Shown in pieces: positions 8,350 through 34,011 of a stretch of 64,000 nucleotides of DNA. Each line of letters opens with the position of its first letter. The first letter of the stretch is position 1. The notes under the pieces are model-generated. The model worked only from the letters and a program-made list of their open reading frames with translations. It made no database searches and was not told where the DNA came from. The stretch lies in assembly GCA_027487575.1 (NCBI GenBank), contig JAIYDJ010000062.1, positions 62,001 through 126,000 on the forward strand, in the 5' to 3' direction. Source of the DNA: Rhodobacter sp. GTDB lineage: Bacteria; Pseudomonadota; Alphaproteobacteria; Rhodobacterales; Rhodobacteraceae. Made by a program: the position numbers and the translations under genes.

Positions 8350-10611
8350 GTGCTGGGCGCCACACGCGGCAATCCATGGCTGGTGCGACTGTCACGCCTG
8401 CGCCGGCAACGCAGGGTGCAGACCGGCATGACGCTGGGTCTGGTGTTTCTCGGGCCGCTTCTGGCCGTGGGCACGTTCCTTGCGCTGGGGCCGTTCAATC
8501 AGGGGGCCTCCTCGCCCGGCCTGCGGCTGATCCTTCTGGCCGACTTTGTCTATGTGCTGCTGGTGGCAACGCTGGTGCTGGCCCGTGTGCTGCGCATGGT
8601 TGCCGACCGCCGCCGCCAGTCCGCCGGGTCGCGCCTGCACCTGCGCCTGACCGGGGTTTTCGGAATCGTGGCGCTGATCCCGACCGTGCTGGTGGCCGTG
8701 TTCGCCGTTCTGACCGTGAACGTCGGTCTTGAAGGCTGGTTTTCCGAACGGGTGCGGCAGGTTCTGGCCACGTCACTGTCTGCGGCCGAGGCGTACGAGG
8801 CCGAACATCGCCACAACCTGACCGAAGATGCGAAGGCTTTTGCCGGCTACCTGAACGGGGCCAAGCAGCAGACGTTCTTTCTGGGCGACGGCGATGTGCG
8901 CCCACTGTTGACGCGGGGACAGGCGGCCATCCAGCGTGGCCTCAGGGAAGTCTATCTGATCGACGGCGCCGGAGAGTTGAAGACGCGCGGCGTGAAGACC
9001 TACTACTTCGACTACGAAAAACCCTCCGCCGCCGAGATTGCCCGCGCCAAGTCGGGTGAGATTGTGATCATCGAGGATTGGGCCAACAACGAATCCCGCG
9101 CGCTGGTCCATCTGACCGATTTTGCTGACCGCTATCTTTATGTGACGCGCACGGTGGACGGGTCGATCCTGTCGTTGCTGGATGAAACGCAGCAGACCGT
9201 GGCGTTGTACCAACAGCTTGAATCCGAACGCGGTCGCATCCTGTTCAACTTTGGCCTTCTTTACCTCGGGTTCGCGGTGATTCTGGTGCTGGCCGCAGTC
9301 TGGGGTGGACTTTGGTTCGCCGAACGGCTGTCGCGGCCGGTCGGGCGATTGGCCGGGGCGGCGCAGCAGGTCGGGCAGGGCGATCTGGACGTGCAGGTGA
9401 TCGAGGAAGAGGGCGACGATGAAATTGCCGTGCTGGGCCGCGTGTTCAACCAGATGACCCGGCAGTTGAAAGGCCAGCGCGAGGCGCTGATGGACAGCCA
9501 CCGCCACACCGAAACCCGCCGCAGGCAGTTCGATTCGGTGCTGTCGAACGTGACAGCCGGGGTGATCGGCCTTGATGCCGAGGGGCGGATCGACTTCGTG
9601 AACCGCGCGGCAGAGCGGTTGCTGGACATGACCGATGGCGTGACCGACCGTCCGCTGCCTGACGCGGTGCCCGAGTTTTCCGATCTGTTCGATCGGTTGC
9701 GCGACAGCATCGGGCTGGCAGTCCAGGACGAGGTGCGCCTGTCGCGGCGCGGCAAGCTGGAAAGCCTTCTGGTCCGGATGAGCGGCCGGCGCACCGAAAC
9801 CGGGCGGCTGGAAGGCTATGTCGTGGCGTTTGACGACGTGACCGACCTGGTCTCGGCGCAGAGGATGGCGGCCTGGGGCGACGTGGCCCGGCGCATCGCA
9901 CACGAGATCAAGAACCCGCTCACCCCGATTGCCCTGTCTGCCGAACGTATCAAGCGCAAGTTCCGGTCGCAGGTCGCAGACCCCGAGGATCTGGAACAGT
10001 TGACCGACGTGATTGTGCGTCAGACCAACGACCTGCGGCGGATCGTCGACGAATTCTCGAAGTTCGCCCGGATGCCCGAGCCTGACCGCCGCGACACCGA
10101 CCTGACCGCGCTGGTGCGCGCGGCGGTGATGTTGCAGGAAAATGGCCAACCGGGCGTGCACTTCGTGAAAACGCTGCCTGCGACGCCCCTGATGGTGGAA
10201 CTTGATGGCACGATGATCGGCCAAGCCTTGACGAACCTGATCAAGAACGCCGGAGAAGCCATTGAGGCCCAACAGGAAAAATCGCCCTTGGGCTATCGGC
10301 CGGAAATCCGCGTCTCGTTGACGGCCGACGAGGCGGGCACTTTGATCACCATTGCAGACAACGGAACCGGCCTGCCGCCTGACCGGGCGCGCCTGTTCGA
10401 ACCCTATGTGACGACGCGCGAAAAGGGCACCGGACTGGGTCTGCCCATCGTCAAGAAGATCATCGAAGAACATGGCGGCACGCTGGTCCTGACGGACGCC
10501 GAGCCGTTCACGGAAGGCGCCCATGCCGGAGCGATGGCGGAAATCCGTCTGCCCCGCGCCACCCGGAAACGGGCGTCAAAGCATCTGGCCGCCGTTGGCC
10601 AAGGGGGTTGA
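8350..10611 (+). CDS. ntrY: Sensor histidine kinase NtrY
   Basis: N-terminal TM region, HAMP, PAS, H-box [25 protein letters not shown]. Probable GTG start at 8350; the ORF remains open upstream. Confidence 0.92.
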   Translation: MLGATRGNPWLVRLSRLRRQRRVQTGMTLGLVFLGPLLAVGTFLALGPFNQGASSPGLRLILLADFVYVLLVATLVLARVLRMVADRRRQSAGSRLHLRLTGVFGIVALIPTVLVAVFAVLTVNVGLEGWFSERVRQVLATSLSAAEAYEAEHRHNLTEDAKAFAGYLNGAKQQTFFLGDGDVRPLLTRGQAAIQRGLREVYLIDGAGELKTRGVKTYYFDYEKPSAAEIARAKSGEIVIIEDWANNESRALVHLTDFADRYLYVTRTVDGSILSLLDETQQTVALYQQLESERGRILFNFGLLYLGFAVILVLAAVWGGLWFAERLSRPVGRLAGAAQQVGQGDLDVQVIEEEGDDEIAVLGRVFNQMTRQLKGQREALMDSHRHTETRRRQFDSVLSNVTAGVIGLDAEGRIDFVNRAAERLLDMTDGVTDRPLPDAVPEFSDLFDRLRDSIGLAVQDEVRLSRRGKLESLLVRMSGRRTETGRLEGYVVAFDDVTDLVSAQRMAAWGDVARRIAHEIKNPLTPIALSAERIKRKFRSQVADPEDLEQLTDVIVRQTNDLRRIVDEFSKFARMPEPDRRDTDLTALVRAAVMLQENGQPGVHFVKTLPATPLMVELDGTMIGQALTNLIKNAGEAIEAQQEKSPLGYRPEIRVSLTADEAGTLITIADNGTGLPPDRARLFEPYVTTREKGTGLGLPIVKKIIEEHGGTLVLTDAEPFTEGAHAGAMAEIRLPRATRKRASKHLAAVGQGG

Positions 10612-15086: not shown

Positions 15087-15320
15087 ATGGCTGCCGATAA
15101 ACAGAACTTGCAGGATGCTTTCCTGAACCATGTGCGCAAAGCCAAGGTTCCGGTGACGATCTTTCTGATCAACGGGGTGAAGCTTCAGGGGGTGATCACC
15201 TGGTTTGACAATTTCTGCGTGCTTTTGCGCCGGGATGGTCAGTCGCAGTTGGTCTACAAGCATGCGATCTCGACCATCATGCCGGGCGCGCCGATCAACC
15301 TCTATGACGGAGAAGATTGA
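15087..15320 (+). CDS. hfq: RNA chaperone Hfq
   Basis: [66 protein letters not shown] is a full Sm1/Sm2 match. Confidence 0.97.
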
Positions 15321-31136: not shown

Positions 31137-32948
31137 TTACTCCTGCCACCAGACCTCGGGCTGAAAGCCCAGCCAGTCACCATAAAGTGGCAATCTTTCA
31201 GGGAAACGCAAGCTCTTGTGATGGGCCAGCCGCGACACGTCGGAGAACCAGATCGGCACGACATAGCGCCCCGAGATCAGCACCCGGTCCAGAGCCTGCA
31301 CGGCAGGCACGAAGTCCTCGCGGGTCTTGGCCGCCAGCATGGTTGCGATCATCGCCTCGGCGGCGGGGGAGTTCATGCCCATCCAGTTGCCCGTGCCGGG
31401 CGTTTCTACCCCGGCCGAACCCCAGTACAGCATCTGTTCGTTGCCCGGCGACAGGGACAGACCCCGGATGTAGTAGGTCATGTCGAAATCATAGGCCTTG
31501 GTGCGTTCGTTGTATTGGGCAGCATCGATGTTGGTCACGCGCACCTCTGCCCCCAGCCGCCGCACCGACTCGGCATAGATGTTCGCCGCGGCAATCAGAT
31601 CGGACGCGCCGTTGACCAGCAGGATTTCAAAGGCAAAGGGCGTGCCGTCGACATTGCGCAGCGTTCCGTCCTCGACGGTCAGCCCCGCTTCCTCCAACAA
31701 GGCAATCGCGGCGCGCAGGTTCTTGCGGTTGGTCTGGGTCCCGTCCGAAACCGGAAGGCTGTACCCGTCGATCGCGCCCGGCAGAAGGCTGTCCTTGAAG
31801 GGGGTCAGCAGATCGAGCACGGCGCCGGTTGCCGGTGTGCCGGGGGTTGCAGCCAGATCGGAGTTCGAAAAATAGCTCTGGATGCGGGGCGTGGTCCCGC
31901 CGTTCAGGGTCGCGTTGATCGCCTCGAAGTCGAACACCTGGATCAGGGCCTGCCGCACCCGCCAGTCTGCGAACATCGGGCGGCGGGTGTTGAACACGAA
32001 CCCTTCGATCCCCGACGGGCGGCCATGCGGGATTTCGGATTTCACGATGTCGCCGGACTGCACGGCGGGAAAATCGAAGTTGGTCAGCCATTTCGCCGGG
32101 TTGGTCTCGCGAAAGCTGGTGATGACACCCGCCTTGAACGCCTCGAACATCACGCCGGGGTCGCCGAAGTAGTCATAGCGGACCTCGTCGAAATTGTGCA
32201 TCCCGCGATTGAACGGCAGATCGCGCCCCCACCAGTCGGGGTTGCGCCGGTAGGTGATGATGCGCCCCGGCTCGACCTGATCCACCACATAGGGACCCGA
32301 GCCCAGCACTGGCGTCAGCGAGGTTTCGGCAAAGACCCGGCCTTCCCAGTCCGACTTCGACAGGATGGGGCGCAGACCGAGGATCAGCGGAAGTTCCCGG
32401 TCGGCCACATTGAAGGTGAACCGCACCGACCGCGGCCCGGTCTGTTCGCTGGACGCGATCTTTTTCCACGCCCCGGCATAGCGCGGCGTGCCTTCGGTCC
32501 CGAGTTTCTCGAAGGACCAGATCACATCCTCGACCGTCACGGGCGAGCCATCCGAGAATCGGGCCTGTTCGCGCAGGGTGAATTCCACGTAAGTCCGGGC
32601 GTCGTCCGTGGTCACCGATTCGGCCAGAAGTCCATAAAGCGAGAAGGGTTCGTCATAGGACCGGACCAAAAGCGTCTCGACCGTCAGGGCGGCCATCCCG
32701 GCGGGGGCAACGCCTTTCAGGATGAACGGGTTCAACGAGTCAAACCCGCCGGCCACGCCGAACACGATGCGCCCCCCCTTGGGGGCATCCGGGTTCGCGT
32801 AGGGCAGGGACACAAAATCGGGTGGAAGGGCAGGGTCGCCATACATAGCTATGCCGTGGGTCGACTCGGCAGACGCCGGGGCGCTTGCCGAAAAAAGCAC
32901 CAGGCAGGCAAAGATCATCCGGATCGATGTGAAAAAAACTGTACCCAT
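31137..32948 (-). CDS. Extracellular solute-binding protein, family 5 (YejA-like peptide/oligopeptide binding)
   Basis: Signal peptide MIFACLVLFSASAPASA; HGIAMYGDPALPPDFVSLPYANPDAPKGGRIVFGVAGGFDSLNPFILKG; C-terminal YVVPIWFSDVSRLAHHKSLRFPERLPLYG. N-terminal start uncertain. Confidence 0.9.
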   Translation of the reverse strand: MGTVFFTSIRMIFACLVLFSASAPASAESTHGIAMYGDPALPPDFVSLPYANPDAPKGGRIVFGVAGGFDSLNPFILKGVAPAGMAALTVETLLVRSYDEPFSLYGLLAESVTTDDARTYVEFTLREQARFSDGSPVTVEDVIWSFEKLGTEGTPRYAGAWKKIASSEQTGPRSVRFTFNVADRELPLILGLRPILSKSDWEGRVFAETSLTPVLGSGPYVVDQVEPGRIITYRRNPDWWGRDLPFNRGMHNFDEVRYDYFGDPGVMFEAFKAGVITSFRETNPAKWLTNFDFPAVQSGDIVKSEIPHGRPSGIEGFVFNTRRPMFADWRVRQALIQVFDFEAINATLNGGTTPRIQSYFSNSDLAATPGTPATGAVLDLLTPFKDSLLPGAIDGYSLPVSDGTQTNRKNLRAAIALLEEAGLTVEDGTLRNVDGTPFAFEILLVNGASDLIAAANIYAESVRRLGAEVRVTNIDAAQYNERTKAYDFDMTYYIRGLSLSPGNEQMLYWGSAGVETPGTGNWMGMNSPAAEAMIATMLAAKTREDFVPAVQALDRVLISGRYVVPIWFSDVSRLAHHKSLRFPERLPLYGDWLGFQPEVWWQE

Positions 32949-33026
32949 TTCGACAACAACCTTCTGTGGCCTGCATTTCTTGGCTGCGACCGTAAGACGG
33001 GTTGTGAACCTTTTCAAACTTTTAAC

Positions 33027-33055
33027 TTGGACTGCGCAAGAAGGCGGCGTATAAG
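33027..33055 (+). promoter_or_regulatory. Candidate promoter TTGGAC-N17-TATAAG
   Basis: TTGGAC at 33027-33032, 17-nt spacer, TATAAG at 33050-33055; about 75 bp upstream of an intrinsic terminator. Confidence 0.6.
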
Positions 33056-33061
33056 AGGGGC

Positions 33062-33136
33062 ACTGCTCGATAGGTTTCTTGCCTGTATGAAACCTGCCTC
33101 ATAACTGAACGCCGGGCTTGTCCCGGCGTTTTTTTT
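33062..33136 (+). ncRNA. Candidate small RNA (~75 nt), unannotated
   Basis: Preceded by the TTGGAC-N17-TATAAG promoter. Internal hairpin AGGTTTC(33072-33078)/GAAACCT(33089-33095). Ends in perfect GC hairpin plus T8. No plausible ORF. Confidence 0.62.
33108..33136 (+). terminator. Intrinsic terminator AACGCCGGG-CTTGT-CCCGGCGTT-TTTTTT
   Basis: 9-bp perfect stem, 5-nt loop, run of 8 T. Confidence 0.9.
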
Positions 33137-33237: not shown

Positions 33238-34011
33238 ATGAGTCTTGCGGGAAAAACTGCGGTTGTTACGGGATCGAATTCCGGGATCGGTCTGGGCATT
33301 GCGCAGGAACTGGCGCGCGCGGGTGCGAATGTCGTGCTCAACAGCTTTTCCGACCGGCCGGAGGACCACGCGCTGGCAGACCGCATCGCGGCCGAGCATT
33401 CCGTCGCGGTGCGCTACATCGCTGCCGACATGTCGCGCGCGGATCAGTGCCGCGACCTGATCGCGCAGGCCGGAACCTGCGATATTTTGGTGAACAACGC
33501 GGGCGTGCAGCATGTCGCCGCGATCGACGCCTTTCCGACCGAAAAGTGGGACCAGATCATCGCGATCAACCTGTCATCGGCCTTTCACACCACGGCGGCC
33601 GCCCTGCCGGGCATGAAGGCGCGGGGCTGGGGGCGGGTGATCAACATCGCGTCGGCCCATGGCCTGACGGCCAGCCCGTTCAAGTCGGCCTATGTGGCTG
33701 CCAAGCACGGCATCGTCGGGCTGTCCAAGGTGACAGCACTCGAGGTGGCGGGGCAGGGCATCACCTGCAACGCCGTCTGTCCGGGCTATGTGCTGACCCC
33801 GCTGGTCGAAGCGCAGATCCCCGACCAGATGAAGACGCACAACATGACCCGCGACGAGGTGATCAAGAACGTGATGCTGGAACGCCAGCCGTCCCGGCAG
33901 TTTGCAACGGTGGAACAACTGGGTGGCACGGTGGTGTTTCTGTGTTCGGCGGCGGCGGACCAGATCACGGGCACGACGATTTCCGTCGACGGAGGATGGA
34001 CCGCACTGTGA
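33238..34011 (+). CDS. bdhA: 3-hydroxybutyrate dehydrogenase (SDR family)
   Basis: GKTAVVTGSNSGIGLGIAQELARAGANV, DILVNNAGVQHVAAIDAFP, YVAAKHGIVGLSKVTALE, CPGYVLTPLVEAQI. Confidence 0.93.
   Translation: MSLAGKTAVVTGSNSGIGLGIAQELARAGANVVLNSFSDRPEDHALADRIAAEHSVAVRYIAADMSRADQCRDLIAQAGTCDILVNNAGVQHVAAIDAFPTEKWDQIIAINLSSAFHTTAAALPGMKARGWGRVINIASAHGLTASPFKSAYVAAKHGIVGLSKVTALEVAGQGITCNAVCPGYVLTPLVEAQIPDQMKTHNMTRDEVIKNVMLERQPSRQFATVEQLGGTVVFLCSAAADQITGTTISVDGGWTAL

Follow-up and report, generated by a model that had tools for sequence, protein, structure and literature searches.

The closest described counterpart of the RNA considered here is StsR (formerly RSs0827), a 72-nt, stress-induced sRNA of Rhodobacter sphaeroides whose transcription depends on RpoHI/RpoHII and which lowers expression of the dcw cell-division genes (PMC8307010). 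StsR binds Hfq, the dcw leader and UpsM, and promotes cleavage by RNase E (PMC8307010; PMC8625941), opening a previously double-stranded region to the enzyme (PMC8307010). UpsM itself derives from the mraZ/dcw leader in R. sphaeroides, where a 206-nt RNA is processed to a 3' fragment of 130 nt (PMC5089854). A second described RNA of similar design is SorX (RF02784), an RpoH-controlled Rhodobacteraceae sRNA that, like the RNA described below, consists of a 5' hairpin and a terminator hairpin; the two differ in sequence, target and locus. Regulation of the StsR type was thus known before from R. sphaeroides, and what is new here is comparative evidence on how StsR works.

Within a stretch of 64,000 nucleotides, hereafter the window, we describe a locus that very probably encodes an orthologue of StsR: a trans-acting, Hfq-type sRNA of the Rhodobacteraceae with a putative stress-sigma promoter and two predicted surfaces for pairing with the dcw leader and UpsM. 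Neither the identity as a StsR orthologue nor the dcw-leader target had been part of an earlier, sequence-only reading of this DNA.

The locus and its likeness to StsR

The element lies on the plus strand between a divergent gene for a family 5 extracellular solute-binding protein (31137-32945, minus strand; Pfam PF00496, E 6e-60; start codon placed by eye) and bdhA, a separate downstream gene for 3-hydroxybutyrate dehydrogenase (33238-34011, plus strand; TIGR01963, 373 bits against a cut-off of 307). Its promoter (33027-33055) joins TTGGAC (33027-33032) to TATAAG (33050-33055) across 17 nt, exactly as the sequence-only reading had it, and the predicted StsR-type RNA of about 71-75 nt starts at a conserved 5' A and runs through the T tract of the terminator (33062-33136), that is, 67 nt plus up to U8. 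The RNA begins with the tail CTGCTCG (33063-33069), followed by a predicted hairpin at the coordinates already given for it (33072-33095), in which AGGTTTC (33072-33078) and GAAACCT (33089-33095) enclose the 10-nt loop TTGCCTGTAT (33079-33088). A second pairing region, TGCCTGTATGAAACCTGC (33080-33097), is made up of this loop and the 3' arm. At the Rho-independent terminator (33108-33136), AACGCCGGG (33108-33116) is followed by a 5-nt loop (33117-33121), a closing arm from 33122 and T8 (33129-33136); the 9-bp stem and the T8 stand as first described, but its description as a GC stem has to be amended to seven G-C and two A-U pairs. The absence of a plausible ORF also holds: the sole ATG-initiated frame within the transcript (33087, MKPAS-stop) has its start buried in the hairpin and reads differently between copies beyond that point, and the short peptide MKPAS was rejected as a gene product because the frame beyond it is not conserved. 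Hfq is indeed encoded in the window (hfq, 15087-15320, plus strand). Directly upstream of the -35 box, TTTTCAAACTTTTA (33010-33026) is strongly conserved in most copies and could be an UP-like element or a promoter part of the divergent solute-binding-protein gene.

The syntenic copy in genome G051, which we take to be R. sphaeroides given a PuhA 100% identical to that of the species, measures 68 nt plus U4, giving 72 nt, equal to the published length of StsR. The window RNA shares with StsR this 72-nt length, a predicted UpsM/dcw target, a promoter that may be of the same stress-sigma type and an Hfq in the genome, and its orthologue in R. sphaeroides stands in the same gene context; it differs in belonging to another genus and in facing, in its own dcw leader, a less perfect second site (11 nt unbroken). 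The TTG of the -35 element is important for both RpoH proteins (PMC3441632), and by analogy the window promoter would be of the RpoHI/RpoHII type, its TTG motif and conserved 17-nt spacing being consistent with the RpoH logos described in that study (PMC3441632). RpoH control, Hfq binding, UpsM pairing and RNase E cleavage are all taken from the R. sphaeroides literature, and by the same analogy would hold in the window's organism. Orthology with StsR, considered alone, has a high probability; it is drawn from length, target, promoter type and published behaviour rather than from the nucleotide sequence of the published StsR.

This basis leaves some room, if little, for the best of the alternatives, namely that the window encodes a second conserved trans-acting sRNA of the same circuit that pairs with the dcw leader and is not StsR. 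Besides that basis, this reading draws on map position: the R. sphaeroides copy lies at 1444 kb, the number RSs0827 does not obviously match that location, and UpsM (RSs0682) and CcsR1 (RSs0680a) are found at 692-695 kb. The number may reflect map position, in which case 1444 kb would be a poor fit; SorX (RSs2461) and SorY (RSs1543), for their part, did not turn up near the positions implied by their RSs numbers in the R. sphaeroides genome. A pattern search of 815-855 kb in that genome returned no competing candidate, the covariance model described below finds a single copy in the window's own genome, and the 72-nt length, the UpsM/dcw complementarity, the TTG-type promoter and the presence in R. 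sphaeroides 2.4.1 all fit StsR. We accordingly consider a second sRNA improbable and StsR the identity to retain.

Conservation, synteny and the weaker alternatives

A blastn search of the element against 148 relatives, 91 of them in the same family, matched 90 of these 91 genomes (E 9e-11 or better), and among the searched relatives outside the family no match was better than E 0.004. Of 89 aligned copies, 85 agree in every one of the first 40 nt, ACTGCTCGATAGGTTTCTTGCCTGTATGAAACCTGCCTCA. An exact 37-nt core pattern occurs in at least 118 contigs; among the matches listed, all names are of Rhodobacterales or unclassified Alphaproteobacteria, and the genera include Paracoccus, Ruegeria, Leisingera, Sulfitobacter, Roseobacter, Neomegalonema and others. 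With 33 distinct copies as its input, a covariance model found all four family genomes in a set of 289 from the class; outside the family it gave two borderline matches only (E 5e-4 and 7.5e-4), about what chance would yield over so many genomes. The covariance search and the conservation and synteny of the region upstream of bdhA in Rhodobacterales had both been put forward with the sequence-only reading as ways to check it, and the second gave a strongly positive result. The promoter is kept along with the core: TTGG is retained in 79 and TATA in 80 of 81 family copies, and in 69 of the 74 copies whose distances can be measured, the spacer between the hexamers is exactly 17 nt long and the conserved 5' A lies 12 nt after TATA.

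Synteny also bears on whether the element acts in cis, as a 5' leader or attenuator of bdhA or as a read-through terminator, instead of as an sRNA. It lies upstream of bdhA on the same strand, with a terminator preceding the gene, as such a reading would have it. Of 76 testable named loci, 71 have the solute-binding-protein gene next to the element on the opposite strand. For bdhA, 73 named loci are testable and 55 have it downstream; in the other 18 of 73 it is missing there and the sRNA is intact. Since bdhA follows in only these 55 loci, the sRNA does not depend on it. An invariant 40-nt core matching a remote operon is, moreover, not expected of an attenuator, and we give a cis role very little credence compared with an sRNA gene.

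Membership of a described RNA family fares no better. In a search of the window with Rfam 15, no family matches the element at its gathering score, and the one hit in the window to reach gathering is a tRNA at another place. The element could be thought a member or paralogue of SorX, an RpoH-dependent sRNA with the same two-hairpin layout, given a match that is full-length, though weak (21.2 bits). This is below the gathering score of 46.6, the core sequence and the target differ, and, because a real SorX scoring 81.4 bits is found elsewhere in the same genome, the weak match is not SorX; the probability of such a relationship is correspondingly slight. The genuine SorX, above the Rfam gathering score, is located at G000:C96:7112-7186, and the same genome has a second, weaker SorX copy-like match (G000:C85:46372-46424, 42.8 bits). 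Weak matches to SorY, to Xanthomonas asX2 and Xoo2 and to Hrs12 in Rfam arise mostly from the terminator hairpin, lie far under the gathering scores and were set aside, as was the Paracoccus RNA DenR/sRNA-29, which is antisense to an ABC transporter gene and comes from another locus.

The transcript from 33062 folds into two stem-loops at -25.9 kcal/mol, compared with -14.7 +/- 2.6 for shuffled sequences (z -4.3). Scans of a 3-kb region are less telling: a terminator scan returned two sites where 2.3 were expected, with no excess over chance, and a promoter scan at a sigma-70 threshold returned no site. As generic promoter and terminator scans are at chance level, the case for an sRNA gene rests on comparative data. 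Across 33 distinct copies, the terminator helix has two-sided changes at seven of its nine pairs with 92.1% of cells paired, and its covariation score was reached by none of 500 shuffles. Hairpin 1 is paired in 99.6% of cells in the same 33 distinct copies; six of its seven pairs never vary, and covariation therefore says nothing for or against it. A chance arrangement of promoter-like and terminator-like sequence, for which it can be said that simple scans alone do not beat chance, is refuted by the family-wide conservation and the terminator covariation and deserves next to no weight. Judged from these alignments, the window element is a real small-RNA gene, far from chance, and conservation, the kept promoter spacing and the covarying terminator together support the independent sRNA with its own promoter and terminator that had been proposed from the DNA.

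Predicted pairing sites in the mraZ/dcw leader

In silico, the core is complementary to the dcw leader at two sites, the tail CTGCTCG to CGAGCAG (site 1) and TGCCTGTATGAAACCTGC to GCAGGTTTCATACAGGCA (site 2). Almost every family leader has such complementary sites, those of R. sphaeroides and of the window's own genome among them. Over 63 family leaders, the longest exact complement to the core averages 14.1 nt, as against 6.6 nt for shuffled cores, the highest shuffle reaching 7.8. Site 1 is present in 49 of the 63 family mraZ leaders, usually 48-61 nt 3' of the point where site 2 begins, and of all 12-mers in the leader alignment the most conserved is TTTCATACAGGC, which falls within site 2. 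The loop had earlier been singled out as the target-pairing sequence; it forms just one part of the predicted pairing surface, which also includes the hairpin's 3' arm and the 5' tail.

With so little variation in the core, only outliers allow a test of covariation with the target. In the most divergent sRNA copy (G029), an altered 5' tail pairs with an altered leader over 10 nt exactly, a result equalled by 1 of 2000 shuffles; the loop region of this copy finds no significant compensation in the leader, and two other outlier copies (G015 and G030) have no compensation with the target.

The own-genome counterpart of the R. sphaeroides UpsM/dcw leader, which is a long mraZ leader with an internal terminator, is on contig C107 and has both pairing sites: site 2 as TCATACAGGCA, 11 nt of unbroken exact complement near 10137, and site 1 intact near 10185. 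UpsM is in this comparison the target of StsR, not the counterpart of the window RNA. Immediately abutting site 2, the own mraZ leader (G000:C107:9300-11300) has an 11-bp stem without mismatch, GATGGAACGGC/GCCGTTCCATC, and its internal terminator is strong. On the strength of these two features an UpsM-type RNA is probably made in this genome as well.

Such a stem is frequent. To form it, a segment of 12-16 nt that adjoins site 2 on its 3' side pairs with more upstream sequence. Of 55 leaders, 42 reach 7 bp or more; the stem occurs in 46 different sequences and involves 9.7 paired nucleotides as against 3.7 in the shuffled control. The leader stem is kept by covariation in most leaders. Its shape is maintained as its sequence changes, even though region R1 was described as hardly conserved in the 2016 UpsM study. 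In R. sphaeroides UpsM, site 2 occupies nt 54-71, site 1 nt 107-113 and the 3' strand of the stem nt 71-83. Since a 206-nt RNA yields a 3' fragment of 130 nt, the cut falls near nt 76, inside this strand, and we infer that RNase E cleaves R. sphaeroides UpsM near that point. Binding at site 2 would break into the stem, in agreement with the published exposure of a double-stranded region to RNase E by StsR.

A proposed two-site switch

In the mechanism that we propose, a stress- or stationary-phase sigma factor of the RpoHI/RpoHII type would transcribe the sRNA from its own promoter to its terminator, and the sRNA would pair with the leader of the dcw operon (mraZ, rsmH and following genes) and with the terminated leader fragment, UpsM. 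The 5' tail would bind site 1 and the hairpin loop and 3' arm site 2, and we infer that the two sites act together. Pairing at site 2 would open the leader stem that begins at its 3' edge and expose a strand to RNase E; the resulting cut would lower dcw expression and so slow division under stress or in stationary phase. In its widest form, which we favour with some reservation, StsR and the dcw leader would constitute a family-wide two-site RNA clamp, in which an invariant 40-nt stretch of the sRNA grips the leader on either side of a covarying stem concealing the RNase E site, and this control of the cell-division operon would be ancestral in Rhodobacteraceae.

The present analysis supplies an unannotated regulatory gene for which Rfam 15 has no entry. 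A regulator known from work on a single species appears from it as near-universal, and as conserved to an extreme degree, in a family common in marine and soil habitats. Two surfaces pairing with one essential leader offer a possible explanation for the extreme conservation of the core. The link between a stress sigma factor and cell division becomes testable in many species. The invariant core, the two sites and the covarying stem go beyond the StsR and UpsM papers cited here, and may overlap with the original StsR paper.

Beyond the dcw leader, further complementarity is seen at two genes. The mRNA of rpoE, targeted by StsR near its GTG start, is here a weakly supported candidate target: in the window's own genome, the duplex with the rpoE start region reaches -37.7 kcal/mol as against -26.9 +/- 3.4 for shuffled sRNA (2 of 1000 as good), and it is weaker in one R. 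sphaeroides congener. A search for rpoE and chrR in the R. sphaeroides genome G051 (contig C4) gave no match, though congeners have rpoE, a deletion strain being one possibility. In one genome only (G032; C17:168550-170570, near 999-1016), a complement of the sRNA, GCAGGTTTCATACAGGTG, immediately precedes the start codon in a motB-like gene, which is a possible extra target there.
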